Shown: positions 2,899-20,404 of the stretch, one piece after another | How positions within the stretch are numbered: the first letter of the stretch is position 1 | Layout: each line of letters starts with the position of its first letter | Source: Halobacteriovorax sp. HLS | GTDB taxonomy: Bacteria > Bdellovibrionota > Bacteriovoracia > Bacteriovoracales > Bacteriovoracaceae | Reading direction: 5' to 3' | NCBI RefSeq assembly: GCF_004006665.1 | Contig: NZ_QOCL01000014.1 | Span: 62,001-126,000, forward strand | Length of the DNA: 64,000 nt | Made by a program: the position numbers and the translations under genes | Notes under the pieces: model-generated | What the model saw: the letters and a program-made list of their open reading frames with translations, nothing else | What the model was told of the DNA's origin: nothing | Databases searched by the model: none

Positions 2899-5776
2899 TC
2901 ATAGAATATTAGTAAAATTATTAATTATAGTCTCCCTATGTACTACGTTCAGTACTTCTGCTGATTCATCAGCTCGTCGTAATGAACTTATTAGTGTTAT
3001 AGATCTAGAGTTCAAAGAAGTAACTAGACTTAATAAGCAGATGAGAAATTCAAATCCTGAGCTTCTTCTAAGAATGGCCGAGCTACTACTAGAAAAAGCA
3101 AGATTGGTTAAAGAGCTTGAGAACGATAAGTTCATGTCTCTTTCTTCAGAACAGAGAGCAAAGTCAGATAAGAAGAAGTATTTTAAAAGATCAACTAGCT
3201 ATTTTGTTAGTGCACAAAGAACTTGTGAGTTAATCCTCAAGAAATTCCCACGCTTTAAAGGAAAGTCTGATGTTTATTACATCATGGCCTATAACGCTAA
3301 AGAATTTCAGCAAGAAAAGAAAGCTCAAAACTACTTTTCTAAATCAATTGGATCATCGAAGAAAAAAGATTTTACTAATACAAGGTCACAGATTGCATTA
3401 GCTGAAATTTACTTCAATCAGGGCAAGTATGAAAAGGCCATACCATTATATAGAAATGCTTTTTCTAAAAAATCTCATAGAGATAAGTGGTATACAAAAG
3501 ATAGTTACAATTTAGCATGGTCTTATTACAGAACAGGGCAAAAGAAGAGAGCAATTCGTATTATGAGAAATGCGTATGATCTCTCTAAAAGTTCTAAATA
3601 TGTTGATATGTCATTTAGTATTGAAAGAGACTTAGCTTATTTTTATACAGATTCAGGAAGAGTTAATGAAGCAGTGAAGTTTTACAAAGAAATAGGTAAG
3701 AATATAGCTGCAAACTTACTAAAGGTCTCAACCTATCTCATGAATAGAGGGAAGTACTCTCAGGCTGAAAAGACTTTAATTCAGGCCTTAAAATACAAAG
3801 TATCTGAAGCTGAAGAAATTGAAATCAATATTAAGTTATTAAGTTTATATGAAAAGTTTGGCAAGTATGACAAGCACCTTAAGGTTTCGACTACTCTTGT
3901 AAACTATAATAAGGCGGGAAAACTTAATCCTGAACAAGTGAAAATACTAGATTATCACTTGAGAAGAGTTGGTGCAATCCTACAAAAACAAGTTACTGGA
4001 AAACAATATAAACAAAATAAATCATTACAGTCTTCAAAGGCCGCTCTGGCCGTTGGCTACTTTGATTTATTAATGATTTTCGATGCTGCAAACTCGTATA
4101 AGTACTCTTTTCTTGGAGCTGAGACCTATTATTCTGCTGGAATGATGAATGAATCTGCTAAGAAATATTCTGAGTCATCAAAGTTAGCATCTGCAAAAGG
4201 TGTTAAGAAGTATGAAAAACTGTCCAACGAAGGGATGATGGCATCTCTTGGGGGAAGTGGAGTTTCTAAAGAAACAAAAGGACTTTATCTAGAGTCAGTT
4301 TACATAAACTTCTTAAAAGAAAATCCAAGATCGAAGAAATCTGATGCGATTTATCAAAGACTATTCTCTTTATACTTTTCAAAGAATGATATTCCTTCAT
4401 GTGAATCGACTCTCATATCTTACAGAAAGAACTTTCCTAAGAGTTACTCTACTCAAGAAGCAATGCTTGCCAGAATTATGGATCACTATAAAAAGAAAGG
4501 TGATGTGGAAGGTATTAAGAATTGGGTAAAGAGAATTAATAGTGGAGAATTTAGAGTTTCTAAAAACTACGCAAAGAAAGTGCGCATGACTCTTTTAACT
4601 ATGCAGTTTGAAGGTGTTGAGAAAGCGAATACTAAAGGTGAGAAGAAAGAAGCATTAAGGCTCTATGTTGAAATTTATAAAGATGAGACTTCAACTAAAG
4701 AAGCTAAAAAGAATGCTGCTTATAATATTGCCATTCTCTTTCATGAACTTGGTGATAATCATAGAAGTTTTGGTTGGGCACAAAGAGCTCTTAGTCATAT
4801 GAGTGGAAATAATGTAAAGAGGTTTCAGTCTTCATTTCTCGTTATAGCTAATGATTTATTCAGTGGGCAGATGTTTGTAGAGAGTGCGGAAATTTATGAA
4901 ACTGTTTTTGATAAAGTTTGTAAGGTTCGAACAAATAATAAAGAAGTTTTCTTAAGAAATGCAGTCATTGTTCAACTTGCTGAAGGTAATAGTGATAAGG
5001 CCGCAAGTGTTCTTAAGAGTGCTTATGGATGTGCTGTAAACCCTTCAGTATTAGATGATCTAGAGTTAGAAATGTTAGATTACTATGTTGAGACGAAGAG
5101 CTGGAATCAAGCTGTAGATCAAGCTGAAAAATTGAGTAAATCGAAGAGAGTGTATAAGGATTTAATCTATCCTCTTGGGAAAATACGAAATGCTTATCTT
5201 GCGGCAGGTAGATCTTCAAATGCTAGAGAAATCGAAAAGAAGATGATGTATTACTACTCGAAAGTGAGAAATCCAAAAGAAGTTCAACTTGAAGGGCTTG
5301 ATGAAATAGCATCTATAAGTATGCAAGACCTTGATAGAAGAATTAGCTCTTTAACTAGTTTTGAATTAGCTTTTCCTGATAAGACATTTAACACTCTTCT
5401 AAAGAGAAAGTTTCAAGAGCTTGATGGTGTAACGACTTCAGCTGTTAAACTTATGAATATTGGTTCTGGAAAAGGAATGATGAAGGCCTATGCCAAGCTC
5501 ATTTATAGCTATAATCACGTTATCAATGAGATCGAAAACTTTAAACCAACAGGAAAGTCAGACGAATATGTACAGTCATTTAAAAAGAGTATGAAAAACC
5601 TCGTCGCACCACTTTCTGTAAAGGTCGTGGACTTCAAAAGAGAAGCGATTAAGCAAATGAAAACAAGTAAAATAATGTCTGAAGAGAATGTAAATATTCT
5701 TTATGAGAATGTATTTGTTCCACAATACTTACCAAATAATAATGGAATATTAATGGATAGAGGAGGTAGCAGATGA
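2882..5776 (+). CDS. Large exported TPR protein of the gliding-type operon
   Basis: 964 residues. A signal peptide ends near residue 27 (TTFSTSA). TPR-like pairs occur along most of the chain: IALAEIYFNQGKYEKAIPLY (about 170-189), YNLAWSYYRTGQKKRAIRI (about 210-228), STYLMNRGKYSQAEKTL (about 283-299), and weaker ones to about residue 800. The start could also be the ATG at 2888, which is better spaced from GGAG at 2874-2877. It overlaps both neighbours (17 bp and 4 bp), so expression is tightly coupled. Together with the preceding protein it probably spans the periplasm as a scaffold between the inner-membrane motor and the outer-membrane barrel. No enzymatic motif is visible. Confidence 0.72.
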   Translation: MVMRYSHRILVKLLIIVSLCTTFSTSADSSARRNELISVIDLEFKEVTRLNKQMRNSNPELLLRMAELLLEKARLVKELENDKFMSLSSEQRAKSDKKKYFKRSTSYFVSAQRTCELILKKFPRFKGKSDVYYIMAYNAKEFQQEKKAQNYFSKSIGSSKKKDFTNTRSQIALAEIYFNQGKYEKAIPLYRNAFSKKSHRDKWYTKDSYNLAWSYYRTGQKKRAIRIMRNAYDLSKSSKYVDMSFSIERDLAYFYTDSGRVNEAVKFYKEIGKNIAANLLKVSTYLMNRGKYSQAEKTLIQALKYKVSEAEEIEINIKLLSLYEKFGKYDKHLKVSTTLVNYNKAGKLNPEQVKILDYHLRRVGAILQKQVTGKQYKQNKSLQSSKAALAVGYFDLLMIFDAANSYKYSFLGAETYYSAGMMNESAKKYSESSKLASAKGVKKYEKLSNEGMMASLGGSGVSKETKGLYLESVYINFLKENPRSKKSDAIYQRLFSLYFSKNDIPSCESTLISYRKNFPKSYSTQEAMLARIMDHYKKKGDVEGIKNWVKRINSGEFRVSKNYAKKVRMTLLTMQFEGVEKANTKGEKKEALRLYVEIYKDETSTKEAKKNAAYNIAILFHELGDNHRSFGWAQRALSHMSGNNVKRFQSSFLVIANDLFSGQMFVESAEIYETVFDKVCKVRTNNKEVFLRNAVIVQLAEGNSDKAASVLKSAYGCAVNPSVLDDLELEMLDYYVETKSWNQAVDQAEKLSKSKRVYKDLIYPLGKIRNAYLAAGRSSNAREIEKKMMYYYSKVRNPKEVQLEGLDEIASISMQDLDRRISSLTSFELAFPDKTFNTLLKRKFQELDGVTTSAVKLMNIGSGKGMMKAYAKLIYSYNHVINEIENFKPTGKSDEYVQSFKKSMKNLVAPLSVKVVDFKREAIKQMKTSKIMSEENVNILYENVFVPQYLPNNNGILMDRGGSR

Positions 5777-6702
5777 GAATACTAATACTGTTAGCACTGC
5801 TGCAATTTGCATCTTGTTCAAGTACATCAAATAAGACTGTAGAAGCCGGTCCATCTAAAGGCTCTATTGACGAGTTCTCTTGGATAGAGAATTCTGACTT
5901 CAATGCCGTTCGTGAAGTACCTTTTTCACCTCGTGCTGACTCTTTTAGTGGCGAGATTGCAAAAGTGGATTCACTTTCAAAGGAATCTCTTGCCAGAGTT
6001 CCGGAGCCAAAACTAGAGCAGTTTGAACAAGTTGAGAAGACTCAAGATGTTTTACTTGTGGCAATTTCAAGTTGCTATAGAAGACAATTTGATAAGGGAA
6101 TGAAGATTTTTAAGGATAATCTTAGAAAATATAAGTCCCACCCAGGGTATTGGAACCTAATGGGAACTTGCTTTTATTTACAAGGTAAAATTAGAAAGGC
6201 GCTTCTTTCATATAATAAGTCGAGAGATTTAAAGAAGAACTATGCCCCTCCAATTAATAATATTGGAGTGATCTATCAGTATCAAGGCCTTGAGCAAAAA
6301 GCATTAGCTGCCTACAAGAAAGCTTCTGAAGTTGGTAATTTTAGTATGACACCTATGTTTAATATGGGGCAGTTGTATTTAAAATATAACTTGATAGATG
6401 ATGCCAAAAATATTTATGAAAAACTTGTTCGAAGAAATAATTTTGATAAAGATGCTGTAAATGGTCTTGCGACTTGTTACCTTAAAGAAGGTAAGGCCAA
6501 TGCTGCGATTAATCTCTACGCAGGTCTTGATACAGAGTTTAAAAAGAATCCGGCCGTAGGTATTAATTATTCTGTAGCACTTTTTTCCGCTGGAAGACAA
6601 AAGGATGCTCGTACAATTCTAGCAAATGTAGATACATCTAAACTTAATAATTACGAGAGTTACTATAATCAAGTTTTAAGAAAAATTGGTGGTACTAAAT
6701 GA
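5773..6702 (+). CDS. TPR lipoprotein of the gliding-type operon
   Basis: 309 residues. A short hydrophobic leader ends in FASC with Cys15, a lipobox with an atypical Phe at -3, so it is probably lipidated and membrane anchored. After an unstructured 80-residue linker, classic TPRs follow from about residue 115: WNLMGTCFYLQGKIRKALLSY, INNIGVIYQYQGLEQKALAAY and MFNMGQLYLKYNLIDDA, plus two more. Overlaps the previous gene by ATGA (5773-5776) and has a perfect AGGAGG at 5761-5766. TPR lipoproteins are part of the gliding machinery in Myxococcus; the equivalent role here is inferred. Confidence 0.75.
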   Translation: MRILILLALLQFASCSSTSNKTVEAGPSKGSIDEFSWIENSDFNAVREVPFSPRADSFSGEIAKVDSLSKESLARVPEPKLEQFEQVEKTQDVLLVAISSCYRRQFDKGMKIFKDNLRKYKSHPGYWNLMGTCFYLQGKIRKALLSYNKSRDLKKNYAPPINNIGVIYQYQGLEQKALAAYKKASEVGNFSMTPMFNMGQLYLKYNLIDDAKNIYEKLVRRNNFDKDAVNGLATCYLKEGKANAAINLYAGLDTEFKKNPAVGINYSVALFSAGRQKDARTILANVDTSKLNNYESYYNQVLRKIGGTK

Positions 6703-6956
6703 TGAAAATAATCCTACCTTTGATAATAATGTTGATGGCCTTTACACCTGACTCTAATGCTGCTGATAAGAAAGTAGTTTATAGGTATAAGAAGTATGAA
6801 AAATTCGACTTTGAAGACCTTGTCATTGAAGGTGAGACAGGTGGACCTGGAGATCTTTCGATTTCCCCGAGATATCAAAGAAAATTTAAAAATAAGTTAC
6901 CATACCGTAAAAACTTCAATGCCGAAATTAGAAAGGGTGTTGAGAGAGTTCGTTAA
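6699..6956 (+). CDS. Small exported protein of the gliding-type operon
   Basis: 85 residues. Signal peptide about residues 1-21 (cut after SNA), leaving a basic mature protein of about 64 residues with the segments KFDFEDLVIEGETGGPGDLS and LPYRKNFNAEI. ATGA overlap with the TPR lipoprotein gene (6699-6702) shows coupling. A small periplasmic protein in this position occurs in Glt-type clusters, which suggests a structural partner of the TPR proteins. I know no biochemical function and see no cysteines or catalytic motif. Confidence 0.65.
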   Translation: MMKIILPLIIMLMAFTPDSNAADKKVVYRYKKYEKFDFEDLVIEGETGGPGDLSISPRYQRKFKNKLPYRKNFNAEIRKGVERVR

Positions 6957-6968
6957 AAGAGGGTATTT

Positions 6969-8945
6969 ATGAACATGGATGTTCAAACAGAGTTAAAAGA
7001 TTTATTTGAATTACTCCCCGTTGGCGCTGCCAGTGGCCAAAAGGGTCAAGTAGTCAAAAGAAAGAGAGTATTAGTAGGAAGCTCTAGCGCATGTGATATT
7101 CATATTGATCACCCTACAGTTTCTCCTATCCACGCTGTAATCGAAGTCGTAGACGGTAAGTTTAAGATTTTTGATATGGATAGCCCAATTGGTACTTATC
7201 TAAATGGTAAAAAGATTGTTTCTCAAGAGTTTCAAATTGAAGACTCAATTAAATTTGGATCTATAGAATTTCAATTTAAGAATTACTCTTCAGATGATTT
7301 GCCACCACCTCTTGAAATGTTGGCACCGATTCAAAAGAAAAAAGAAACTATAAAGAAAGTATTACCTAAGAGTGCTCCTGTAAAAGAGACAAAATCTCTT
7401 CCTATAGAGCCTCCAAGAGTTGAGTATCCTCTTGGAGCTGATCCAAAAGCAGATTTCTCCGAATATATTTTCGAAGATGTTGAAACTCTCTATCCAATTT
7501 TTGACTATTCACCAACAAAGAAGTCTGTTGAGATCATTATTCTACATAATGAGAGAGTATATAGTGTTGATTACTTACCTGTTAAAGACGGTGTTTTTAA
7601 TCTAGTAGGTTCTAAAGCGGGCTCAAGAGATGTTGAGTATGCCTATTTAGGTAAGACAGAGAAAGTTCCATTTGTAGAAATTAGAGGTAATGATGTTTTT
7701 ATAAACTCATTACATGGGTATGAATCAATGAGTTTAAGTGACTCAAAGAAAGATACCGCAGCCTCCCAGATACTACTAGGGAATGACGATATCATTAGAT
7801 TTGTTAATGGAGATTTACAAATCTATGTAAGAGGAACTGATGCGCCACCAAAGGTTGCTCATGCTCCAATAATGAGAAGAGATAAGGAATTTATTAAGTG
7901 GCTTATTCTCGTTTTCTTATTTTGCTTAATGTTCTTGGGGTTCTTTACTTTCTATGCAGTTGATGAAGAAATTGAAAAAGAGAAAGTTCCAGAAAGAATC
8001 GCGACAATTCTCTATAAAAAGAAACTAACTGTTTCTAAAACAAAGGCCATCGATAAGACTAAGGATAAGCCTAAGGAGAAAATTCAAAAATCTCCACAAC
8101 AAAAGAAAGTTACAAAGGTAGCAGTTAAGAAACAAGATGTTAAAAAGGTCGAAACGAAGAAAGCTAACGTTAAATCAGGTTCTAAAAAAGCTATAAGTAA
8201 AGCACCTGCTAAGAAAGCGACAGCTAATAAAGGTCCTGTTGATAAGAAAATGGATCAGGTATCAAAGCCTAAGAAAACAGGTGGAAAGGCCTCAAATAGT
8301 AAATCTACAGCAAATAAGAAAGTTGCGAATTCCAAGTCTAAAGGTGCTGTAGATGTGTTTAAGTCTGCCGACTTTTCAAGTTCTCTTAGTTCACTTATGG
8401 CAAAGGGTGGAAGTGTGAAATCTGCTCAAGCTGTAAACACGCTCGATTCTAGCTCTGGGAATGAAGCTAGTATTGGAGGAAGTGACTCTGCAACTTTAAA
8501 AAGAGCAAAAGTCTCTAATAATGTTGGAAGCTTAACTGGTGCAACTTCTGGTAAACTTGATTCATCTAAAGGTGTTAGTGGGTTAGTGAATAAGAAGAAT
8601 ATCTACACTGCAGGAGTTCCATTTGAAGAGGTTGTCCTTGGTGGAATGGACCCAGACGTAATTAGAAGAATTTTAATTGATAATATTCCACAGTTTAGAT
8701 ATTGCTATCAACAAGAGCTTGATAGGGCCAAGGCCGCATTTAATGGAATCGTGAGATTAGACTTTATCATTGGAGCTTCTGGACACGTTAGCAAAGCTAG
8801 TGTTGAATCTGCCTCTAAGGCCTTGCCGAGTAAAGTTAAAGGTTGTGTTGTGAACGTTCTAAAAGGAATTAGATTTCCTGAACCACTTGGTGGTGGTGTT
8901 GTAGAAGTTAATCAACCATTTAACTTCTATCCAAAAAGAAAATAA
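6969..8945 (+). CDS. FHA domain / transmembrane / Lys-rich linker / AgmX-PglI tail protein (GltG-like)
   Basis: 658 residues, no signal peptide. Order: cytoplasmic FHA domain (about 28-106), a middle segment, one transmembrane helix (about 308-328, KWLILVFLFCLMFLGFFTF), a Lys/Ala/Ser-rich linker (about 345-450) that could cross the periplasm like TonB, and a C-terminal AgmX/PglI-type tail (about 555-658) with Cys579 and Cys626, which could form a disulfide. This layout matches inner-membrane adaptor proteins of Agl-Glt gliding machines. The FHA phosphopeptide pocket looks altered: the usual Gly-Arg is Gly37-Ser38, and Ser-Arg-x-x-His is SPIH (52-55). A tandem pair of terminators follows, so this closes the operon. 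Confidence 0.8.
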   Translation: MNMDVQTELKDLFELLPVGAASGQKGQVVKRKRVLVGSSSACDIHIDHPTVSPIHAVIEVVDGKFKIFDMDSPIGTYLNGKKIVSQEFQIEDSIKFGSIEFQFKNYSSDDLPPPLEMLAPIQKKKETIKKVLPKSAPVKETKSLPIEPPRVEYPLGADPKADFSEYIFEDVETLYPIFDYSPTKKSVEIIILHNERVYSVDYLPVKDGVFNLVGSKAGSRDVEYAYLGKTEKVPFVEIRGNDVFINSLHGYESMSLSDSKKDTAASQILLGNDDIIRFVNGDLQIYVRGTDAPPKVAHAPIMRRDKEFIKWLILVFLFCLMFLGFFTFYAVDEEIEKEKVPERIATILYKKKLTVSKTKAIDKTKDKPKEKIQKSPQQKKVTKVAVKKQDVKKVETKKANVKSGSKKAISKAPAKKATANKGPVDKKMDQVSKPKKTGGKASNSKSTANKKVANSKSKGAVDVFKSADFSSSLSSLMAKGGSVKSAQAVNTLDSSSGNEASIGGSDSATLKRAKVSNNVGSLTGATSGKLDSSKGVSGLVNKKNIYTAGVPFEEVVLGGMDPDVIRRILIDNIPQFRYCYQQELDRAKAAFNGIVRLDFIIGASGHVSKASVESASKALPSKVKGCVVNVLKGIRFPEPLGGGVVEVNQPFNFYPKRK

Positions 8946-9282: not shown

Positions 9283-12200
9283 ATGAATGTTGTACGTCTT
9301 CTCATTGTCTTTTTTGTTGGTTTAACATCGGCCTTCTCTCTAGAGTGTGGATTATCCGAAAATCTTGAAATGAATTGTTCAAAAACAAAGAGAGTTAAAA
9401 ACCTCGAAGAGTTGAATGAGTATATGAGTGACTACGCAGCGATATCTGGTATAGCGAAGAATCTATTAATTGATTTTGATCTCAATACTACTGATGATTT
9501 AAGTATTCATTCACCATGTAAAGTAATATTCAAAAGACTTAAAGACTTAAAAGCAAAAAATCTATGTGTAAATGGAAAAGAAGGAATAGTTTTTCAAAAT
9601 AATATAACTCTAAATGCCCAAGACGTATCACTACACTCAAAGAAGAGAATCGTTATAAGACATCATGCAAATATTACGGCAAATAATCTGTCTCTCTTGT
9701 CATCTGGAGATGGACTTGATTCAAGAGTCCATATTAGACATGACTCTCAGGTGAATGTTAATAATTTAACTCTAGTGGCAGACGCAAGAGCAACTCTAGG
9801 GCATACATCTACTTATCAAATACAAAACTCATTAAATATAAATTCAAAATTAGAATTTTCTGCAATTTGGAAGAATTCAACTATTAATGCCAAAGAAGTA
9901 AAAATATCGTCAGATAACAGAGCTAGATTTTCCAAAGGAGTCGTTCTAAATGCAACGACTATGGATATTTCATCACCTGAGTGTAATGCATCAAATTTAA
10001 CTGTTGCGGCCGCGTCGGGAGGAAATTGTTTTGATACGACAAGACCTGTTGCAAAGCTTACAAGGAGTGCTAAAGAGATAAATGCTGGACAGAGTGTTAG
10101 CTTTAGCGCAAAAAAATCAAGTGATGACAAAGGTATTATCAAGTATGAATTCTTTGTGAACTCTGAACTGGTTAGATCTAATCAAAATCCTGAATTCACT
10201 CATAAATTTGTCGAAGCAGGTATTTTCTATGTCGAATTAGTTATTGAAGATGCTGATGGATATAGGTCGAGTGCTCGAAGAAAAGTTATTGTTAATGAGA
10301 CGCTTGCAACTTCAGAGGGTTCTTACTTTGATTATAGAATTGTAGACAATACCCTAAGTTTAATTTTTCATCAGCTTATTCCTCATGAAGAAATAGCTTC
10401 TGCAAAGTACATCATCACAGAATTAAATGGAGAAGAAGGAGTCTTTGAGTTTCCAATTACTAATTTCTATCATAGATCGGAAAAGATTTTTGAAGATTTT
10501 GGAGGGGGACAATATAAAGTAGGTCTAAGTGTTACGGATATTTATAATCGAACATTCTTGTATGAAAGAGCAATAGACTATACAGGAGAGAGTGAGTTTT
10601 ATAAAGAACCTCCAATCATAGAGTACAAAGTGACTCAGGTCGCACCTAAAGAGATCATGGTTGATTTTAGAAAGATCTTTGATCCAAGTGATAGGCTTCA
10701 GTGGATTGATATAGATTGGGGAGATGGTACTGTAGAAGAGGCCGACTATATATCGACAGCGTTTCTAAAGCATAAGTATTCAACCACAGGTACATTTGAA
10801 ATTAAAATCCTTGTTGCAAAAGAAATTGATGGAAAGCAAAGTATTTCTGAGTCAATTCGCCTCGTAACTGTAACAAATGATGAAGTGCCTCAATTAGCGC
10901 CAATTATTGATTATAATATTTTTATCTCAGACTTTGCTCCATATGTAACTTTCAATATAGATCGTTCAATTTCCCCAAATGCGGAAATTGTAAGTGTCGT
11001 ATTCGATCATGGTGACGGGTCTTTCTATACTGGAAAGGATTTTATACACACTCACTTTTATGAACCAGGTGCATATATTTCTAAACTTACAGTCACAGAC
11101 TCGAATGGTTTAACCATGACCCAATCTCTACAGGTTGTTATTAGTGATCAAGGAAATCCCTTGATTGCAGAGTTGAAGTGTGATGAAAATTTATCCCTTT
11201 TAAGAGTTGAATGTGAAGTGGTTGGAATTGATAAGTTCTCGGAACTTTCTGAGATGAGTATTGATTGGGGAGATGGAAGTGTTGAAAGTATTGATTTGCA
11301 TCAAGGAGACTTTACTTGGGAAGATGTTGTCCATAATTATGCAAGTAAAGGCGAGTACTCTATAATTTTAACTGTTAAGAACTTTAGAAATGAAAAAGTA
11401 GATTCTTCTTTCTCTGTAAACTTCAATGGTGGAGGAGATGGAAAAAGGCCTTTTGCCTCAATTGATTGTGCTCCTACGGGAAGTGGAAAAGAGGTTCGGT
11501 GCGACTTTTCTGATTCTTATGATTCTGATGGTCATATTGAAGTATTTAAGGTTTCAATGGGCGATGGAGTAGTTTACACTTTTAATAATTCAGCTGAACT
11601 TGTTCATAGTTACGCTACGAATGGACTTTACATCGTAGACCTAGAGGTTACAGATAATTCCGGTCTCACTTCAACGGCATCTAATTCTTTTGAGTTAGTA
11701 AATCAGGCTCCTTTGATTAATGTTTTTTGCGATAGTATCGGACCTCATAAGCTTAGTTGTTACTCGTATTCAACTGATCCTGATGGGTTTATAGCAAATA
11801 CTCTTTTTGATTGGGGCGAAGGCATTCAGAGTGGTACTGAGGATAGCTTTGAAACAACTTTACAGTCTGGTGGGATTAAGCATGTGCATGTGTCTGTTTT
11901 TGATAATGAGGGGAAAGTCTCTTCGACACAAATAGATGTCGTTGTGGCAGAGAATGTCCTTCCAAGTGTAGATTTCTTATGTCGTACGCCTTCAGTAGGT
12001 GAGGTGAAATGTGAAAATAGTTCAATTGACATTGATGGTGAGGTCGTTAGTTTTGAGTGGAATGTTTCTGGAAATGTAGTACGTTCTGATGTTTTATCTT
12101 TATCAAATATTATAGAATCACCTATAAATATCTCACTTACTGTTACTGATAATCTAGGTGGAACTTCTTCTTTATCCAAAAGTATTGAAGTCTTATTGAA

Positions 12201-15200
12201 CACCGCTCCTATTGCTTCTGCAGAGTGTCTTGAATCTGGATTTTTCACTATTGAATGCGATGGTTCGTCTTCGTCTGATCAAGAGAGTACGGAGCTAATG
12301 TACACGTGGTATTTGGATAATGTAATAATAGGAAATGAGCAAAAACTTTCATACAAATTTGATAAATTATCTGATTCCGTTTTAAAACTTGAGGTTAAAG
12401 ACTCTGATGGGGCGAAGAGTGAAGCTGTTGTGTCGTATAGCATCTTAAAACCTGAGGTCTCTCTAAATATTGGTTGTACGCAATATGATAATTATGCTGT
12501 TAGATGTACGGGGTTTTATCCATTTCAAATTAATGAAGAGAGTGCATCGTTTAATTGGTTTGTTAATGGAGAGTTAGTTTCTGAGGCAAAAGAGTTAGAC
12601 TATCTTAGTTCTGAAACAGAAACATTGAGTATTAGACTTTTTATTAGTATGGGCAATGGTCTTTTAGAATTGGATAAAACAGAAGAGTTTACATTTACAG
12701 AACTTCCTCAGAATATGATAAAAAGTTCAGCTTCTTTAGTACAAGTGAGCGAAGTTAAAACCTTGTATAATAAACTTGATGAATTAACTTTAGAGCTAAG
12801 AGATGGTTCTCCTCTTTTCAGTGAAGATGGGAATATATCAGACTTAGTTATTTCAATAAATGGAGAAACTACTGTTGATGAAGGTTTTTTGTTTGAAAAT
12901 AATATATTCAAACTTAGAGGTCTCTTTGCAGAAGGATTAAATCATGTTGAAATCACATTTTTGGATGACTTGGGTAGAACTGTTAATTTCCAATCTAGCT
13001 ATATTTTTGGTTCAAAAAGTATTCATCTGAATAATCCAGAAAATAGAGAGTTAGATATTACTTTTTACGACTTTGATCATAATGAAATTTATAAAATTCA
13101 ATCCAATGAAAGTAACATAACTGTTAATGATATTCCTTCCATCGATATGTACCTTGTTTCTGTGTTGGGAAAACTTACACGAATAAATCACTTTGAAGAA
13201 AATAGTTTAGAGATAGACTTGGCAGACTTTAGTCTACCTTCTGAAGTTAATGATTCTAATTTTGATATCAACAATAGCTTGCAAGGATGGAATCTTCAGA
13301 AGGGAAGCTACTCTCAGGCAACTTCTAGTATCGATCCTTTCACTGGTAAAGAGCGCTATTCTAGTAAGCTTCTACCTAATAGTGATGGTGTTATAAAAAT
13401 AGAGTCACGATTATCACTAAAGGACTATACTGAAAAGATTTATGAACTACCTTTTTCTAGGTCTCTAAATACTGGTGATATTCTAATTGCCTATATTAGT
13501 AACTTAAAATCGGGAAAAGTAGTAAAAACTGTCTATAAGTCTATTCAAAATACAGAGTCCATTCTCTCGAGCGAAATAACTGATTCACTATTTAGTGAGC
13601 TTAGCGGTGAAGAAGAGGAACTTTTGATTTCGTTCTACCTGAAGACAAATAGCATTTCTAGTGAATTTAGTTTTACAAATATCTTGATTCCGTATGCGAT
13701 TGCTCAATCAAGCACTTCGCCAAGTGGCAAATCAAGTGTAAGTATTTCTCACTACAAAATGGTAGATACAATAGTTACCTTTAATAAAGTTCGAGATAAT
13801 CAAGGATTTAGGATTGCGGAGCTTGAACCCTTGTCTGTCTTACCGTCTCGTCCCTTTGCAGATAATTATGGTGCAAAAATTAATAACGAAAATGTTTACA
13901 AAGTATTAATTGATGCGAAAATTGTTAGACCCTTGGGGCAAGAAGTTTTTGTTTATATTTGTGATTTTTATTCACCTTCCCCCAATATAAATAACTGTGT
14001 AGAGATCAGACTAGAGGAAGGCGAAAACTTTTTCACTAGAAATAAAGAAAATGAATATGATGTCATCTTCAAAGAAAGTGATCTTAGCTATACTCCAGAA
14101 TTCTTTTTTCTCTGTTTAGGAACTAGGAGTAGTTTTTCTTGTGCAAAGAATGAAAATGGATACAGGTTTCGTAAACTAATAAGTCTATCTAAATTATACC
14201 CTTCTGCATTGAGGTATGGCTTAAGAAAAGGTACTGATAACTCGGATGGTGCAGTTGATTGGATTTCGAGTAGCCATATGGGATTATTTTCTTGGTTAGA
14301 ATTGGATACCGTTTTAGGGAAAGTGCGTTTTGACGATGCTGGCCATGTAAGTAGTTATAAAAAAGATGTTGAAATAGCGGGGCACTTGGAACATCATTAC
14401 GGACTTTCAATCGATTTAAGGTTTTTAGCTACGACACCTCCTCCCGGAGTAGTTCAGAATTCTGAAATATTCCAAGGGGCAACATCTCCTACTAATAGTA
14501 TCTATGATGCGATAGCAATAAATCAAATTCTTGATAATGCGAGGCCGCAGTATATTGAAAAAGTTCTGTTGAATTATAACGGAACAGATTTTGGTTACTA
14601 TGTTAATAATACATGCCTTAGCTCTGGATATAAAATGAGTAAAATTTTAAGACACACTGGAAGCGGGCACAGAAATCATTTCCATTTAAAATTCTTTGAT
14701 GCACTAGATGCGGGAAATATTCAATCTAGAGAAATTAGCTTGTTTAGTAATGAAGAAATTGTTAGAAGAACCGCGTATGATCATGAGCTAGGACATAGTT
14801 TTAAAGATGAATCTTACCTTAAAAAGGAGAAACGGCCAGTTATTATTCCTTTAGATAGAGTTGATGTAAAAGGAAGTGATTTTTATTTTCCCAAGAGGGA
14901 TGAAAATATCTATTCTTTTGAAGACAATTCAGTGAAAGTCGTAGATTGGAGGAAGTATCAAGTCTTGGATCCTGAAGCAAGAAAGAGAATGAAGCTTCTT
15001 TGGAATTCAGAGGATGATGGGGACAGCTGTTTTGAACAGGTTGTGCAACTTGATTTTGATACTCAGAAGACAACTGTTGATACAGAAAAGTTGCCAAAGG
15101 TAAAAGAATTCTACTCTAGTGGAGAGAGTCTTGAATTAAAATTTGATAATACAGCGTTTTCTCCCTTAGATTCATTTGGAAAAATAACTATTTCCCTTAC

Positions 15201-15795
15201 GGGGGAATTGATTAAAGATGGAGTAAAGGTTAATTCCATTGTTAAAGATGTTGAGTCAGTCATAAGTGAGTCGGGAAGAAGGACCTTTAATGTAGATTTA
15301 TACCAGTCTATTCCTATACACACGTTTAGTGGTCGTGACGATTTGGAAAAGACAGTTCGTCTAGGGGCTGGGATAGAGAGTATAGATGGAACAAATCAAA
15401 CAGAAGTATTTTCAAAAACAATTACGATTTGTCCGATGGGGACATCTGTAGGAGAAGGTAGGTGTAATTACCCTGATCCGGCAACGCCAGAGTTGAATCC
15501 TGAAAAAACACCTATTGTTAAAGAGGAAGGACTAAAAAGTGGACCATGTTATGGTTTAGAAGATAACAGAGGTTACAAGAAAGAGTGTACATATCATGTT
15601 CGATGTTCAGGAAAATGGTCCAAGCTTGTAGGGCAAGAGGAAAAGGTTGCTTATCATCCTCATCAGTATAATTGCAAAGATGTTGATGGTTCGTTTGAAT
15701 TTGTTAAAACTGAAGTTATTACTCCAACGCTTCAAGCATTTTGCATGAATCCAAACGGAGAGCTTGGCGAAGGGTTAGATTTGGTGTGTAATTAG
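9283..15795 (+). CDS. Giant secreted PKD-repeat protein with a LAS-type metallopeptidase signature
   Basis: 2170 residues. Signal peptide about 1-19. Residues about 60-240 are short beta-helix-like repeats. From about 250 to 1130 follow eight or more PKD-type domains, several with the WGDG/GDG signature (e.g. DWGDGTVEEA, DWGDGSVESI). A distal region contains H-x6-D (His1704, Asp1711; HHYGLSID) and HxH (1799-1801; NHFHLK), the zinc-ligand pattern of LAS peptidases such as MepA (M74) and VanY (M15) that cut peptidoglycan peptides. A separate HELGH follows at 1834-1838. The C-terminus (about 2085-2170) is Cys-rich. By inference it is a secreted or surface cell-wall enzyme with an Ig-like stalk. 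AAGG precedes the ATG; no partner gene is obvious. Confidence 0.75.
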   Translation: MNVVRLLIVFFVGLTSAFSLECGLSENLEMNCSKTKRVKNLEELNEYMSDYAAISGIAKNLLIDFDLNTTDDLSIHSPCKVIFKRLKDLKAKNLCVNGKEGIVFQNNITLNAQDVSLHSKKRIVIRHHANITANNLSLLSSGDGLDSRVHIRHDSQVNVNNLTLVADARATLGHTSTYQIQNSLNINSKLEFSAIWKNSTINAKEVKISSDNRARFSKGVVLNATTMDISSPECNASNLTVAAASGGNCFDTTRPVAKLTRSAKEINAGQSVSFSAKKSSDDKGIIKYEFFVNSELVRSNQNPEFTHKFVEAGIFYVELVIEDADGYRSSARRKVIVNETLATSEGSYFDYRIVDNTLSLIFHQLIPHEEIASAKYIITELNGEEGVFEFPITNFYHRSEKIFEDFGGGQYKVGLSVTDIYNRTFLYERAIDYTGESEFYKEPPIIEYKVTQVAPKEIMVDFRKIFDPSDRLQWIDIDWGDGTVEEADYISTAFLKHKYSTTGTFEIKILVAKEIDGKQSISESIRLVTVTNDEVPQLAPIIDYNIFISDFAPYVTFNIDRSISPNAEIVSVVFDHGDGSFYTGKDFIHTHFYEPGAYISKLTVTDSNGLTMTQSLQVVISDQGNPLIAELKCDENLSLLRVECEVVGIDKFSELSEMSIDWGDGSVESIDLHQGDFTWEDVVHNYASKGEYSIILTVKNFRNEKVDSSFSVNFNGGGDGKRPFASIDCAPTGSGKEVRCDFSDSYDSDGHIEVFKVSMGDGVVYTFNNSAELVHSYATNGLYIVDLEVTDNSGLTSTASNSFELVNQAPLINVFCDSIGPHKLSCYSYSTDPDGFIANTLFDWGEGIQSGTEDSFETTLQSGGIKHVHVSVFDNEGKVSSTQIDVVVAENVLPSVDFLCRTPSVGEVKCENSSIDIDGEVVSFEWNVSGNVVRSDVLSLSNIIESPINISLTVTDNLGGTSSLSKSIEVLLNTAPIASAECLESGFFTIECDGSSSSDQESTELMYTWYLDNVIIGNEQKLSYKFDKLSDSVLKLEVKDSDGAKSEAVVSYSILKPEVSLNIGCTQYDNYAVRCTGFYPFQINEESASFNWFVNGELVSEAKELDYLSSETETLSIRLFISMGNGLLELDKTEEFTFTELPQNMIKSSASLVQVSEVKTLYNKLDELTLELRDGSPLFSEDGNISDLVISINGETTVDEGFLFENNIFKLRGLFAEGLNHVEITFLDDLGRTVNFQSSYIFGSKSIHLNNPENRELDITFYDFDHNEIYKIQSNESNITVNDIPSIDMYLVSVLGKLTRINHFEENSLEIDLADFSLPSEVNDSNFDINNSLQGWNLQKGSYSQATSSIDPFTGKERYSSKLLPNSDGVIKIESRLSLKDYTEKIYELPFSRSLNTGDILIAYISNLKSGKVVKTVYKSIQNTESILSSEITDSLFSELSGEEEELLISFYLKTNSISSEFSFTNILIPYAIAQSSTSPSGKSSVSISHYKMVDTIVTFNKVRDNQGFRIAELEPLSVLPSRPFADNYGAKINNENVYKVLIDAKIVRPLGQEVFVYICDFYSPSPNINNCVEIRLEEGENFFTRNKENEYDVIFKESDLSYTPEFFFLCLGTRSSFSCAKNENGYRFRKLISLSKLYPSALRYGLRKGTDNSDGAVDWISSSHMGLFSWLELDTVLGKVRFDDAGHVSSYKKDVEIAGHLEHHYGLSIDLRFLATTPPPGVVQNSEIFQGATSPTNSIYDAIAINQILDNARPQYIEKVLLNYNGTDFGYYVNNTCLSSGYKMSKILRHTGSGHRNHFHLKFFDALDAGNIQSREISLFSNEEIVRRTAYDHELGHSFKDESYLKKEKRPVIIPLDRVDVKGSDFYFPKRDENIYSFEDNSVKVVDWRKYQVLDPEARKRMKLLWNSEDDGDSCFEQVVQLDFDTQKTTVDTEKLPKVKEFYSSGESLELKFDNTAFSPLDSFGKITISLTGELIKDGVKVNSIVKDVESVISESGRRTFNVDLYQSIPIHTFSGRDDLEKTVRLGAGIESIDGTNQTEVFSKTITICPMGTSVGEGRCNYPDPATPELNPEKTPIVKEEGLKSGPCYGLEDNRGYKKECTYHVRCSGKWSKLVGQEEKVAYHPHQYNCKDVDGSFEFVKTEVITPTLQAFCMNPNGELGEGLDLVCN

Positions 15796-15841: not shown

Positions 15842-16924
15842 ATGAGCTTAAAGATTAACTTTATCCTTTTACTTCTAAGTTTTAGCGCAAAGTGTTTCGC
15901 TTCATCAGACCCATTCGCTGACTTCAATATCGATCCAAGAAAGTATAGCTTAATTTTGGACTATCATGACGATAGAGATGCTGAAGATGAAAAAGGTCTG
16001 AAAGAGAACTACAAATTCAAATTTCCTTTAATTGAGTTTTACAAGAATAAAGAACTTAATGGATCACCAATCGGAAAACTAAATGAAGAGGGTCTTTACA
16101 TTGAAGGCAAGAAGGTTTGTTACACAAAAAATATTCTTGCTGATAACTATAATATTTTGCTTGAGGATGTCGTCCTTCCTGGTTATCTCGGAGATGGAGA
16201 TGTATACACCGTTGGTGAATACTCGAATGGTATAAAATTTAACGCTATAAGGTGTCCATTCTTAGGATATAGACAGGAAGCCGGTTTGAAACTAATGACA
16301 GCACTAGTCTTAGAGGATTACGATGAAAAAACTAAACTGGCTAAAATACGTCTTGGTGATGGAGTCGCCTATTTTTCTGCTAAAAAAATGAGTATTCAAT
16401 ATTTACACAGACCACCACTACGGACAATGGATCACTATGGTGTTGATCCAATAAAGCTTGCTAAGCATATTGAGTCTAAGTTTACTGAATATTTAAAAAA
16501 TCGAAGGGATCGTTTTAAACCTAAAGTAAGTGGTGAGACTTTTGAGCAACGATACGGACTAGAGGATTACTTTTCTCTATCTAATCTTGACTGGATGGAT
16601 AGATATGGTGCTAAGGAATATAAAGAAAGTTTAATTAAGAAATATGGAAAATTTCAGATTATAAAGCATTTTGACTTTGAGAATATGAATTTTTATGTAG
16701 CTAGATATAAGAATAAAACTAAAGGAAAGAAGGACATTATTGAAATAAATCTATGGAAAGAAGATATGAATAGAATTCTTCTATGGAAGAATTTGGATAA
16801 TGGCAATGTTAAGTACTATGAATTCTTCGAAATAGGTTTTTCTGATAAGAAAACAAGTTTTAAAGATAATGCAAGTTTTATGATTCCTCAATTCGAATAT
16901 GAAGGAACATGGGACGATTTTTAA
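15842..16924 (+). CDS. Secreted protein of unknown family, copy 1 of a tandem pair
   Basis: 360 residues with a signal peptide (MSLKINFILLLLSFSAKCFA, cut about residue 20). The mature protein is acidic-to-neutral and rich in Tyr, Lys and Asp. I do not recognise the family and see no catalytic motif; four Cys are retained in both copies, one inside the signal peptide. It is almost identical to the protein at 17428-18510 up to about residue 282; the last 78 residues differ strongly. AGGA lies nine bases before the ATG, and the GGAAATATATA before the start is shared by both copies. It follows the giant PKD protein by 46 bp and may be co-transcribed with it. Confidence 0.7.
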   Translation: MSLKINFILLLLSFSAKCFASSDPFADFNIDPRKYSLILDYHDDRDAEDEKGLKENYKFKFPLIEFYKNKELNGSPIGKLNEEGLYIEGKKVCYTKNILADNYNILLEDVVLPGYLGDGDVYTVGEYSNGIKFNAIRCPFLGYRQEAGLKLMTALVLEDYDEKTKLAKIRLGDGVAYFSAKKMSIQYLHRPPLRTMDHYGVDPIKLAKHIESKFTEYLKNRRDRFKPKVSGETFEQRYGLEDYFSLSNLDWMDRYGAKEYKESLIKKYGKFQIIKHFDFENMNFYVARYKNKTKGKKDIIEINLWKEDMNRILLWKNLDNGNVKYYEFFEIGFSDKKTSFKDNASFMIPQFEYEGTWDDF

Positions 16925-17427
16925 TAACCATTTCTTGAATTTCGGCTAAACCGAAAGAGCTAACAAGCTTCATCTGAAATAATGGCCAGGCCCTCTTATA
17001 GGGCCCCACTTTTCTTATCTAAGTAGTACTGATAATATCCTGGGTAGTGATTGATTCCACCTTTTCTACTTCAATAACTTTGTCCGTGAAATAATAAAAA
17101 AAAATGCATGAATTTTTGACTTAGCTAAAACCATTTAGCATTGTACTTTTTTCTTCGTGATGATCTTCAAAGAGTAGTAAATGCTTATTCTAAAGGTAAT
17201 CAGGAAATTAAAAAAGTACTCTCAGATTTATAATTTTAGCTTAGTTGTTTAAGATTTCTTGAAAGATAAGAACTTATACTCTTAATTTCTTTTCTGTATT
17301 TTATCTTCTCAACATTCTACTTTAAAGAATTCAATAAATTCATTTTGATTACATCCAGATGCAGCCTATAATTAGTTAAGTACTTTTAAATCTAATAATT
17401 ATATTCGTCATTACTGGGAAATATATA
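16925..17427 (+). other. 503-bp spacer between the tandem copies: hairpins and a possible gene remnant
   Basis: Two hairpins follow the stop of copy 1: TTTCGG/CCGAAA (16940-16956) and GGCCCT/AGGGCC (16989-17005). The second is followed by CCACTTTT, so it is at best a weak terminator. The rest is AT-rich with no complete gene. A 34-codon open stretch at 17129-17233 is listed separately. No inverted terminal repeats or transposase remnants are visible. Confidence 0.5.
17129..17233 (+). pseudogene. Possible C-terminal remnant of a decayed gene
   Basis: A 34-codon open frame without a start codon ends in TAA and reads like a real protein tail (LRDDLQRVVNAYSKGNQE then IKKVLSDL). Its composition is helical and coding-like, unlike the surrounding stop-rich AT sequence. 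It could be the end of a gene lost when the flanking gene was duplicated. It is too short to be sure; a chance open frame is quite possible. Confidence 0.2.
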
Positions 17428-18510
17428 ATGAATCTTAAAATTAACTTTATCCTTTTGCTTCTAAGTTTTAGTACAAAGTGTTTCGCTTCATTCGCGCCAT
17501 TTGCTGACTTCAATATCGATCCAAGAAAATATAGCTTAATTTTGGACTATCATAACGAAAGTGGTACTGAGGGGGAAAAAGTTCTGAAAGAGAACTACAA
17601 ATTCAAATTTCCTTTGATTGAGTTCTACAAGAATAAAGAACTTAATGGACCACCAATCGGAAAACTAAATGAAGAGGGACTTTACATTGAAGTCAAGAAG
17701 GTTTGTTACACAAAAAATATTCTTGCTGAGAACTATAATATTTTGCTTGAGGATGTCGTCCTTCCTGGTTATCTCGGAGATGGAGATGTATACACGGTTG
17801 GTGAATACTCGAATGGTATAAAGTTTAACGCTATAAGGTGTCCATTCTTAGGATATAGACAGGAAGCAGACTTGGAACTAATGACAGCACTAGTCTTAGA
17901 GGATTACGATGAAAAAACTAAACTGGCTAAAATACGTCTTGGTGATGGAGTCGCCTATTTTTCTGCTAAAAAATTGAGTCTTCATTATTTACATAGACCG
18001 CCACTACAGACAATGGATCACTATGGAGTTGATCCAATAGAGTTTGCTAAGCATATTGAGTCTAAGTTTGCTGAATATTTAAAGCAGCGTAGAGATCGAT
18101 TTAAACCTAAAGTAAGTGGTGAGACTTTTGAGCAGCGATACGGACTAGAGAATTACTTTTCTCTATCTAATCTTGACTGGATGGATAGATATGGTGCTAA
18201 GGAATATAAAGAGAGCTTAATTAAGAAATATGGAAAGTTACAAATTATAAAGCATTTTGATTTTGAGAATATGTTTGTTTATGTGAGAAAATTCAAAAAT
18301 AGTATTAAAGGAAAGAAGGATATAATCAAACTATCTTTTGTTAAAGAAGATATGGATAGTTATAGGTTATTTAAGAATTTTACTAATAATCACATAAGAT
18401 ACTCTGATTTCAAAATTGGATTCTTAAAGGATTATGATCAATTTAAGAGATCTCGTGGCCTAATTATTCCGACACAGGAGTATGAAGGATATCCAATGGA
18501 AGATTTTTAG
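17428..18510 (+). CDS. Secreted protein of unknown family, copy 2 of a tandem pair
   Basis: 360 residues, the same length as the copy at 15842. Signal peptide about residues 1-20. Near-identical at DNA level for long stretches, e.g. around 17750-17870 versus 16165-16285, which indicates recent duplication. From about residue 283 the sequence is only loosely related: KGKKDII, KEDM, IGF and a final EYEG...DF are kept. This gives a conserved body with a fast-diverging tail. It is preceded by 503 bp of non-coding DNA and the same GGAAATATATA leader. 18511-18798 downstream holds no gene that I can support. Function unknown. Confidence 0.7.
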   Translation: MNLKINFILLLLSFSTKCFASFAPFADFNIDPRKYSLILDYHNESGTEGEKVLKENYKFKFPLIEFYKNKELNGPPIGKLNEEGLYIEVKKVCYTKNILAENYNILLEDVVLPGYLGDGDVYTVGEYSNGIKFNAIRCPFLGYRQEADLELMTALVLEDYDEKTKLAKIRLGDGVAYFSAKKLSLHYLHRPPLQTMDHYGVDPIEFAKHIESKFAEYLKQRRDRFKPKVSGETFEQRYGLENYFSLSNLDWMDRYGAKEYKESLIKKYGKLQIIKHFDFENMFVYVRKFKNSIKGKKDIIKLSFVKEDMDSYRLFKNFTNNHIRYSDFKIGFLKDYDQFKRSRGLIIPTQEYEGYPMEDF

Positions 18511-18786
18511 TTTTTCTAGTGAAGCGTTTTTTAGAGTGCATAACTTTCTTCTAAAAATATAGTTTGCACTTTTGGTTTCGCTATATCTAAAAACTTCCAT
18601 TCATTCACATTTGCTCATATGTAATTTGAAGACAACTATATCTACCAAATTTCTTTTTTCCAGAATTGGTGAATAATTACAGCAATTCGTGGCACTTCTA
18701 ACAAGAGGTGACTTACTTGAGGATGCTATAAGTTGCTGAACTTATTGACGTGCTCTCAGGAATTTAGTCCAAAGTTGATATCACTG

Positions 18787-18792
18787 TATAAT
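18787..18792 (+). promoter_or_regulatory. Consensus -10 (TATAAT) six bases before an ATG: leaderless promoter candidate
   Basis: TATAAT at 18787-18792 is followed by six bases and the ATG at 18799, so transcription would begin at or next to the start codon. No Shine-Dalgarno sequence precedes the ATG. The -35 region is poor (TTTAGT at 18763-18768, 18-bp spacer). Confidence 0.5.
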
Positions 18793-18798
18793 AAGCCC

Positions 18799-19326
18799 AT
18801 GATTCAAAGAATACGTAGATTTACCGATTTCCGGCTTAAAACACTGCTTGCAACGCTATTTGCGGTGCTGTGTTTGTTAGAGTTCTTTGATGGCAAGGTT
18901 GATGTCTCAGATTTCACTATTCCGGCCTTACTGGTTATAGTCTTCAGTGAGATTTTTTATAATTACATAAAATCCCGTGGTACTCAAAATGTTGAGTATG
19001 CCGACGAGTCCACTCAGTTGAGTATCTTTGACAGAGGTAATGTTGGATTTCTAGAATGGGTTAAGATGATTGATAAGAAAGTTCTTTCACGTATGATCTT
19101 TAATATCATTATCTTTATTGTCTTTCTAGTCGCTCTTATTTTAGATTTAAGTATCGTAGGTAAGGGAACTAATGATCTAGTCGTAAATATTATTATGGTC
19201 GTTTGGGGTGTTGTCTTCTTTGCTTTTTCAATAAAGGAATTAAAGAAGGCCTTTAGTTATTATAATATTTTTATAACCCAAGTGGCCTTCTGTTTAGTAA
19301 TTAGCTTCTTCTTTCTATTAAAGTAA
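18799..19326 (+). CDS. Small polytopic membrane protein, unknown function
   Basis: 175 residues. The frame is open from 18733, but the ATG at 18799 gives a normal positive-inside start (MIQRIRRF) and lies six bases after a consensus TATAAT, so I choose it. Five hydrophobic segments are visible: about 15-32, 42-60, 94-115, 122-140 and 155-174, with a charged cytoplasm-like stretch between the second and third. I recognise no family. It is convergent with the TolR-like gene at 19328, with a single base between the stops and no terminator. Confidence 0.6.
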   Translation: MIQRIRRFTDFRLKTLLATLFAVLCLLEFFDGKVDVSDFTIPALLVIVFSEIFYNYIKSRGTQNVEYADESTQLSIFDRGNVGFLEWVKMIDKKVLSRMIFNIIIFIVFLVALILDLSIVGKGTNDLVVNIIMVVWGVVFFAFSIKELKKAFSYYNIFITQVAFCLVISFFFLLK

Positions 19327-19327
19327 T

Positions 19328-19840
19328 TTACTCATTGCTTAATACGACAAATTTATACTTTCCAAATCCAGCTGTTGCAGAAGTGTACATAAGCTTCTTG
19401 ATATAGCTATATTTGATTGTTTTATCTACAACAAGATTTACAACACCAGTGAACTTTTGGGCCTCTGGGGATGATTTTTCGATTTGCTTAATAAGCTCTT
19501 TCTTTTTTACGAGCTCATTGTATAGAGGAATAATTCTTCTTCCTGTTTGATCTTGGGAAAGCGAATCTTTCTTAGACTCTAGGACAATTTTATTATCAAC
19601 CCAGATCGTTGTAGGGGAGACTTGAACGATAATACCAGACGTATTTAGAGAAGATGACTCAGATGTTGGAAGTTCAATTCCTTTTGGAACAGTTAGAACA
19701 ACTCCTGAAGAGTTATAACTTTTTAAGAGAAAAACAAGTAGGATAACAAGTATATCTAATAGTGAAGTTATATCGAGATCCATAACGGCAGCTTTCTTTC
19801 TACCTCTTCCTCTTTGTGAATTTGAACGTGCTCTTCTCAT
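19328..19840 (-). CDS. TolR/ExbD-like proton-channel subunit (second), AglQ/AglS-type
   Basis: 170 residues. Basic N-terminus, then one transmembrane helix (about 24-40) carrying the motif DITSLLDILVILLVF. The Asp in this helix is the conserved proton-binding residue of the ExbD/TolR/MotB family. The periplasmic domain (about 50-165) has the ExbD-like fold length. Last gene of a three-gene minus-strand operon: TolQ-like, TolR-like, TolR-like. One TolQ with two TolR proteins, without TolA, TolB or Pal nearby, matches the AglR-AglQ-AglS motor of Myxococcus gliding better than Tol-Pal. It probably powers the machine encoded at 740-8945. Confidence 0.8.
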   Translation of the reverse strand: MRRARSNSQRGRGRKKAAVMDLDITSLLDILVILLVFLLKSYNSSGVVLTVPKGIELPTSESSSLNTSGIIVQVSPTTIWVDNKIVLESKKDSLSQDQTGRRIIPLYNELVKKKELIKQIEKSSPEAQKFTGVVNLVVDKTIKYSYIKKLMYTSATAGFGKYKFVVLSNE

Positions 19841-19843
19841 AAT

Positions 19844-20374
19844 TTAACTCTGGATATTTCCAAATACTATATTACTAAATAACTCTTTAATTCTAATGTC
19901 CGATCCATCTTTACCTGTAGTCCAGATGTCAGGGTCTGTATTTTTTAGAATTCTTACAGAGTCCATGATCTTAACGAGCTCTTCATATTGCAAATCTACG
20001 AGAGGCTCTAGAACGATGTCTTTTTCAGTTGCATTACTCTTTTTAAGTCCAATTAAATATGTTCTCAGAGCAACTAGATCATAATCACCATCACTATTTT
20101 TTCCGATACTCTTTCTCACTGAACCAGGAACACCTGTTAGGATTTGAATATTAGAGGCCCTTATCTTTAAGGTTAGGGCCAGAGGTGGCTTTTTATTCTT
20201 TGGTGGCTCTTGATTAGAAATAATTGGAACATCACTTTGAATTTCATGAATGTTTAAAAAACTTGCAGACATCAAAAGAAAGAAAATAAATATAAAAACC
20301 GCATCTAATATAGGAATTAGATTTGGTTTTTTTACTTCTTTTTTATTTTTTCTTCTACTTGGTGCTCTATACAC
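19844..20374 (-). CDS. TolR/ExbD-like proton-channel subunit (first), AglQ/AglS-type
   Basis: 176 residues, GTG start with an upstream GAGG. Lys/Arg-rich N-terminus, then one transmembrane helix with PILDAVFIFIFFLLM; the Asp is the conserved proton-carrying residue. The periplasmic domain follows from about residue 45. The spacing of three bases to the next gene and 30 bases to the TolQ-like gene shows a single operon. It differs clearly from the second TolR copy in the periplasmic part, which suggests a heterodimer or separate contacts with the Glt-type periplasmic proteins. The family assignment is secure; the partner assignment is inferred. Confidence 0.8.
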   Translation of the reverse strand: MYRAPSRRKNKKEVKKPNLIPILDAVFIFIFFLLMSASFLNIHEIQSDVPIISNQEPPKNKKPPLALTLKIRASNIQILTGVPGSVRKSIGKNSDGDYDLVALRTYLIGLKKSNATEKDIVLEPLVDLQYEELVKIMDSVRILKNTDPDIWTTGKDGSDIRIKELFSNIVFGNIQS

Positions 20375-20404
20375 TGTGACCTCTAAGCAATGAAGGGAAG
20401 AGAA

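Follow-up and report, generated by a model that had tools for sequence, protein, structure and literature searches.

The window considered here, a 64,000-nucleotide stretch of Halobacteriovorax sp. HLS (NZ_QOCL01000014.1, positions 62,001 to 126,000), carries a giant gene followed by two smaller genes encoding secreted proteins, referred to below as partners. The giant gene is a single open frame with an ATG start (9283-15795) and encodes a protein of 2170 aa; the giant, its partners and the segment that carries them are all on the + strand. From its N-terminus the protein is composed of a probable signal peptide (residues ~1-24, 9283-9354, boundary placed by eye), an N-terminal domain (N-domain, residues 25-255, 9355-10047) delimited by alignment, profile search and NCBIfam, a PKD/Ig-like array (residues ~256-1140, 10048-12702) identified with Pfam and blastp, a linker without any Pfam family over the cut-off (residues ~1141-1629, 12703-14169, boundaries approximate), a LAS domain of the MepA/M74-like type (residues 1630-1816, 14170-14730) and a C-terminal part with a Cys-rich tail (residues 2035-2170, 15385-15792). 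The first partner gene (15842-16924) starts 46 bp past the stop codon of the giant and encodes a 360-aa secreted protein, a putative immunity protein or inhibitor; the second (17428-18510), also of 360 codons, is 81% identical to it. The first-pass annotation of this DNA, which was made from the letters alone, had described the open frame, about 880 residues of PKD/Ig domains and a set of putative zinc ligands. The frame and the motif residues were found as described (HHYGLSID begins at residue 1704 and NHFHLK at 1798), and Pfam places the domains from ~255 to 1140.

The giant protein and its LAS domain

The first-pass annotation had assigned the C-terminal region to LAS metallopeptidases (M15, M74) from the pattern H-x6-D followed by H-x-H (H1704, D1711, H1799 and H1801). 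By itself this loose pattern is weak evidence, since it occurs, with the two parts 30-200 aa apart, in 660 of 5000 shuffled versions of the giant. The complete motif HxxGxxxD ... HxxHxH is a different matter: it appears in 1 of 5000 shuffles and is intact in 17/17 LAS-bearing giants examined, a set that was gathered with LAS profiles and therefore has some built-in bias towards the motif. A search with the single window sequence among 59 relatives matched one other genome, G010, and profiles found more. Long-frame profile matches were read in part (those left out include G271, G201, G166, G056, G227 and G028), and a 699-aa protein of G101 (L137) with a membrane-transporter-like start, which also matches the motif, was left out of the count of giants. 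In an alignment of eight giants the invariant positions H75, G78, D82, H167, H170 and H172 correspond to H1704, G1707, D1711, H1796, H1799 and H1801 of the window protein.

Both profile and structure comparisons place this domain nearest to the murein endopeptidase MepA. The profile built from the eight giants (A4) has MepA as its top match in the PDB (1tzp, E 7e-4), with both metal-site motif blocks aligned: HHYGLSID (14392-14415) with HQTGLDVD, and GHRNHFH (14665-14685) with HRAHMH. Alignment of the domain profile to 13 M74 sequences with hhalign gave a probability of 97.1% (E 5e-11). For an AlphaFold model of moderate quality (11 sequences, pLDDT 71, pTM 0.71), MepA is the best VIA match (Z 8.4 over 151 residues, 4.3 Å), followed at Z ~4-5 by Hedgehog, VanXY/VanY and LdcB. 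The ligands of MepA, which we take to be H113, D120 and H211 when the 19-residue signal peptide is added to the numbering, correspond to H1704, D1711 and H1801. These three would be the zinc ligands of the window domain, with H1796 and H1799 in second-shell or catalytic positions, and the MepA alignment suggests that the site is clustered in space. The motif recognised by the first-pass annotation thus stands, with the correction that its three histidines and one aspartate would not all be ligands.

The family assignment requires a similar nuance. PF03411 (M74) has no match in the window giant at E <= 1, and its gathering cut-off is not reached; the G070 homolog scores 12.8 bits against a cut-off of 25. 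The pattern HxSHQxGLDxD / HxxHxH of M74 is present in a looser form. R219 and C222, which follow HxH and are invariant among 13 M74 relatives (A8), are replaced by LKFF. Since the Pfam M74 model scores nothing and these Arg and Cys residues are absent, the domain is called M74-like and not M74. Assignment to M15 was rejected because the two M15_3 proteins of the genome gave an hhalign probability of 0.4% as against 97.1% for M74, a control that consists of these two sequences only, neither with the HxxGxxxD motif. Across the window giant, Pfam and NCBIfam recognise PKD/Ig-type domains only and no peptidase family. Taken together, the profile and model evidence supports residues 1630-1816 as a divergent LAS-fold, MepA/M74-like zinc-peptidase domain with predicted catalytic activity.

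The presence of Hedgehog domains directly after MepA in the fold matches (Z ~5) brings to mind a non-catalytic use of the LAS fold, as a recognition module in a variable self/non-self surface system. The layout would then be like that of VARTIG of Thermococcales, where, according to the available excerpts of PMC8416519, the C-terminus of a large Ig-domain protein is variable and the genes downstream of it vary as well. Such a role is very improbable here: the metal-site and catalytic-type residues are all retained in 17/17 giants, and other C-termini attached to the same trunk likewise bear enzyme motifs (HExxH).

The G010 ortholog has a lipobox-like LLLSC at its N-terminus in place of the signal peptide. 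The Cys-rich tail, located with profiles and blast (E 0.026), resembles the tails of an HExxH giant (G082), of a separate 688-aa protein of G003 and of G059. Leave-one-out profiles recovered the tails of G082 (2e-4), G003 (2e-7) and G059 (8e-6) and missed that of the window giant, the most divergent of them; for the window, a constant end module is for this reason only suggestive.

A downstream partner family with orphan copies

Six close relatives have readable DNA beyond the giant (G000, G001, G010, G062, G065, G098). In 6/6 of them the next gene on the same strand, at -8 to +46 bp, encodes a secreted protein of ~300-390 aa from one fast-diverging family; in the other two of eight relatives (G059, G096) the sequence ends after the giant. 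In G010, for example, this protein shares an N-terminal block with the window partner (blast E 7e-5). Far diverged members, which were outside the seeds of the family profile (A6), follow three giants of another taxonomic family (G211 twice, G210). The protein at L128 matches the A6 profile at E 3e-7, with a reciprocal profile E of 7e-10 and an hhalign probability of 96.3%. The counts of downstream genes do not include loci in which the giant lies at the sequence end (G096, G059, G115, G070) or where ~500 bases remain after it (G145).

The window partners match no Pfam family at E <= 1, ankyrin repeats included; a search of a plasmid collection and one with PADLOC (E 0.01) gave no match. In G025, ankyrin repeats were suspected by eye in the 628-aa gene that follows the giant and were dropped for want of a Pfam match. 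Membership of the partner in SH3b or NTF2/cystatin families is not claimed; the fold matches are weak and were not used as evidence of function, and no weight is given to a family being missing among them.

The partner family is not confined to the vicinity of giants. Its profile matches nine places in the source genome, seven of them away from the giant (at C12:18035, at the ends of C9 and C12 and at the starts of C3 and C13), and tblastn found no giant sequence beside these orphan partners. They stand in repeated arrays with the same ~500-bp spacer as in the window, and these arrays break the assembly. Pairwise whole-gene dN/dS values among five full-length copies range from 0.22 to 0.43, which argues that the orphans are maintained by purifying selection and are not decaying.

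The window spacer (16925-17427) contains a terminator-like hairpin (16989-17005) and a remnant of 25 codons (17153-17227). The remnant matches, at 56% identity, the module at the C-terminus of a trunk-bearing protein of congener G003 (tblastn E 1e-4). Such a remnant is as expected if an earlier effector had been displaced. A C-terminal module of the DxDxNGVRDDIQ type (e.g. L122 7731-8138) occurs in 32 of 129 genomes of the order, often in frames of 160-480 aa and sometimes in long ones, and fragments related to it adjoin orphan partner genes.

Another explanation is that the giant is a hydrolase or adhesin with a housekeeping role in the cell wall or in biofilms and that the partner is an accessory, a wall anchor or activator, instead of an inhibitor. 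SH3-like folds do match the N-terminal half of the partner, though weakly (among them an endolysin wall-binding domain at Z 3.0 and NlpC2 at Z 2.9), and the LAS fold is common in this genome, which also encodes M74, VanY and M15_3 enzymes. Arrays of orphan partners kept under selection with no enzyme beside them, the swapping of modules and the sporadic distribution of the giant (see below) make this explanation unlikely.

Trunk reuse and the insertion site

The N-domain and the PKD array form a trunk that also occurs in other contexts. Over ~1080-1230 aa it is 27-29% identical to giants without a LAS domain (blastp), and the N-domain also occurs in giants that end differently, one of them an Rhs-core protein of a congener. 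A search with the N-domain profile (A10) gave matches in 17 of 129 genomes of the order; eight loci were read (G089:C31, G030:C7, G107:C62, G072, G071, G069, G141 and G083 being left out), and G060 (truncated), G026 (RCC1 repeats) and G144 (frame cut by the sequence end) are not in the counts. Three LAS-less giants, homologous to that of the window over residues 22-1169 at 27-29% identity, carry HEGSH (G089), HEASH (G082) or a beta-helix-like end (G030) at their C-termini, and the small downstream genes differ in each. In congener G004 the N-domain and PKD domains are followed by Rhs repeats, an Rhs-associated core (86 bits against a cut-off of 32.5) and an HELNH end, and then by a gene encoding a 152-aa secreted protein. 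The LAS partner family was found at none of these four loci. In congener G003, a trunk 44% identical to residues 459-1096 leads into an unrelated module; after it come a 252-aa gene, the secreted protein of 688 aa and two genes of the partner family. An alpha/beta-hydrolase identity for the 688-aa protein was not retained: it came from an SHSQG read by eye, and Pfam and NCBIfam find nothing there.

Several LAS giants are flanked by secreted proteins with left-handed beta-helix-like repeats of the form GGFVA...A.V....V (L128 1224-1733, L129 4486-5010, L135 6512-7027, L136 8323-9222), and similar repeats lie inside the G211 and G030 giants. In G025 (L133 3074-9271) the N-terminal part of the giant resembles a separate 700-aa gene just upstream, with which it shares NSSFA(N/D)NSLE...KFLKKNWDI; this likeness suggests tandem duplication or fusion.

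Strong matches to the giant (E < 1e-50) are present in 8 of 368 genomes of the phylum, all of them seeds of the search profile. The genes on either side of the window locus (6969-8945 and 18733-19326) are syntenic in 4/4 congeners with neither giant nor partner between them: they are directly adjacent in G002 and separated by GTPase-type or small frames only in G001, G003 and G004. The segment 8946-18732 is therefore an insertion. Several of the homologous giants are disrupted. Frame breaks divide that of G001 (L049 7333-13794) into pieces of 669 and 1459 aa, and in G107 (L132, upstream of 11363) the giant apparently changes frame near its 5' end; these breaks may reflect pseudogenes, phase variation or sequencing errors. 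In G062 (L052, 6971-13062) transposase-like frames lie within the giant and interrupt it, with the downstream partner gene intact.

These data bear directly on the role in prey modification suggested by the first-pass annotation. With the partner added to that idea, the LAS domain would loosen the prey wall at invasion while the partner shields the predator, much as Bd3460 does for the endopeptidases Bd3459 and Bd0816. The lineage is predatory, and a gene pair of DD-endopeptidase and inhibitor with such a function is documented in Bdellovibrio in the available part of PMC4686830. A gene with strong matches in 8 of 368 genomes, absent from the site in 4/4 congeners and disrupted in G001 (frame break) and G062 (inserted stretch), fits poorly with this, and one would not expect a core predation enzyme to have swapped C-termini or arrays of orphan partners. 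As stated, the proposal was not borne out; the locus resembles a core predation gene less than it does a polymorphic effector/immunity locus, and predatory use seems rather doubtful, if less so than the housekeeping role discussed above. That annotation mentioned neither partner genes nor swapped modules.

The insertion site is occupied in three congeners, G003, G004 and G001 (L146, L148 and L149), by a GTPase-like gene that begins with VGFPNSGKSSLFN and looks FeoB-like by eye; neither the window nor G002 has it. Window positions 2882-8945 and 19328-21067 form a gliding/TonB-like cluster with a GltG-like FHA protein (NF033760, below cut-off) and TPR proteins, and ExbD/TolQ-like genes, recognised by eye, lie on the other strand. 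A link of the giant to Glt gliding, or a role as motility substrate, as suggested by the upstream GltG-like FHA and TPR genes, was rejected: because the giant was inserted at this site, being absent there from 4/4 congeners, and is located elsewhere in G010 and G001, its Glt-like neighbours are incidental.

A possible effector with cognate immunity

A predicted wall-cutting domain is encoded here next to a gene for a secreted protein whose orphan copies are maintained; the trunk stays constant while its enzymes are swapped, and the locus is mobile. Together these features argue for a polymorphic effector with immunity. The giant would be a secreted, PKD-stalked peptidoglycan effector resembling polymorphic toxins, and the adjacent partner its putative cognate immunity protein, a reading to which we give a probability of roughly 60%. 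The giant would leave the cytoplasm via its signal peptide, and its N-domain and PKD stalk would keep it on or outside the envelope of the producer. When a neighbouring bacterium is touched, the LAS domain may enter its wall and cut peptide cross-links. In the periplasm of the producer, the secreted partners would bind and neutralise the LAS domain, and stand-alone copies could protect against related effectors. The relationship to MepA with its conserved site, the operon-like linkage, the orphan copies, the reuse of the trunk and the insertion are computational findings; the route of export, catalysis, wall target and inhibition by the partner are proposed. The target would more likely be a competitor, other predators included, than routine prey. 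This is the weakest step of the scheme; competition is favoured over routine prey entry because of the patchy presence of the giant, its disrupted copies and the orphan partners.

Hallmarks of polymorphic toxins found here are a conserved trunk with a variable C-terminal enzyme, orphan immunity-type genes or displaced modules and, by position in 6/6 close relatives, an adjacent immunity-type gene. Several points weigh against the effector/immunity interpretation. The LAS domain ends at about residue 1816 of 2170, and the ~350 residues after it set the protein apart from typical polymorphic toxins, whose toxin domain is at the extreme C-terminus. Pfam and NCBIfam detect no RHS, HINT, two-partner secretion or other known trafficking or processing domain in the window giant. 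The PDB alignment of the A4 profile to MepA spans just 137 of 202 positions, and Foldseek compares the LAS model to MepA with an E-value of 0.017, at a probability of 0.91. On the side of the partner, the A6 profile includes its own seeds, whose strong scores arise by construction, and the downstream secreted genes of 4 of the 13 LAS giants whose downstream DNA could be read (G107, G025, G081, G061) are outside that profile. The contrast between LAS loci (9/13 with the family) and non-LAS loci (0/4) is modest evidence (P ~0.03, hypergeometric). A separate hypergeometric value for co-occurrence was set aside, since the partner seeds had been chosen next to giants. The tie of the family to LAS is not a strict one, as the family is also present in G003 beside a trunk fragment that lacks this domain. 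Finally, the AlphaFold model of the partner (pTM 0.72) has as its best PDB match a weak one, cystatin-like over residues 190-335 (VIA Z 4.0).

A broader proposal, which we put forward tentatively as somewhat less likely than not, is that the N-domain and PKD stalk define a new class of polymorphic toxins in obligate predators of the Bdellovibrionota. They would serve in killing between predators, whether kin or competitors, through MepA-like opening of the wall, and a dedicated family of secreted inhibitors would shield the producers and, as orphan arrays, bystanders. A literature search found no paper joining 'polymorphic toxin' with 'PKD domain', and 'Halobacteriovorax' together with 'PKD' matched only a paper on a type IVb pilin. 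Enzymes that cut cell walls are central to bacterial predation, and the available part of PMC4686830 presents Bd3460 as the first protein for self-protection in predatory bacteria. If the proposal holds, the present locus would represent a second, unrelated and polymorphic family of enzymes and protectors and offer a handle on self-protection and on whether predators contend with one another for prey. The gene pairs named here lend themselves to direct testing, and the partners form a candidate family of LAS inhibitors without a Pfam family.

Among known systems, MepA (penicillin-insensitive murein endopeptidase; PF03411/M74; PDB 1tzp, 1u10) shares with the window domain the LAS fold and the aligned HxxHxxGxxxD and HxxHxH motifs and is its best fold match. 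MepA is a stand-alone enzyme, whereas the window domain sits within a 2170-aa PKD protein and lacks the M74-invariant Arg and Cys. The likeness to VARTIG (PMC8416519, excerpts) is one of layout, in the large Ig-domain protein, its variable C-terminus and the changing downstream genes; VARTIG is archaeal. Arrays of T6SS immunity genes in Vibrio cholerae arise by effector displacement, according to the excerpted text of PMC5361080. The arrays of the window genome are comparable in that they consist of immunity-like genes, with what is left of another C-terminal module lying among them; they differ in being mostly homologous copies scattered over several loci.

Polymorphic toxin systems, as presented in the available portion of the survey PMC3482391, resemble the locus in their constant trunk, variable C-terminal enzyme, adjacent small gene with orphans and mobile locus, and the window N-domain is common to an Rhs-core protein. 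The window differs in its PKD trunk and in a toxin domain away from the extreme C-terminus, and that portion of the survey contains none of the terms 'PKD', 'Bdellovibrio' and 'Bacteriovorax'. A parallel in a predator is that of Bd3460, which inhibits the endopeptidases Bd3459 and Bd0816 (PMC4686830, in the part available). There, as is proposed for the window, an enzyme that cleaves peptidoglycan cross-links adjoins a secreted protector, although the Bdellovibrio pair consists of penicillin-binding serine enzymes and an ankyrin protein, and that of the window of a zinc LAS domain and a partner without a Pfam family.

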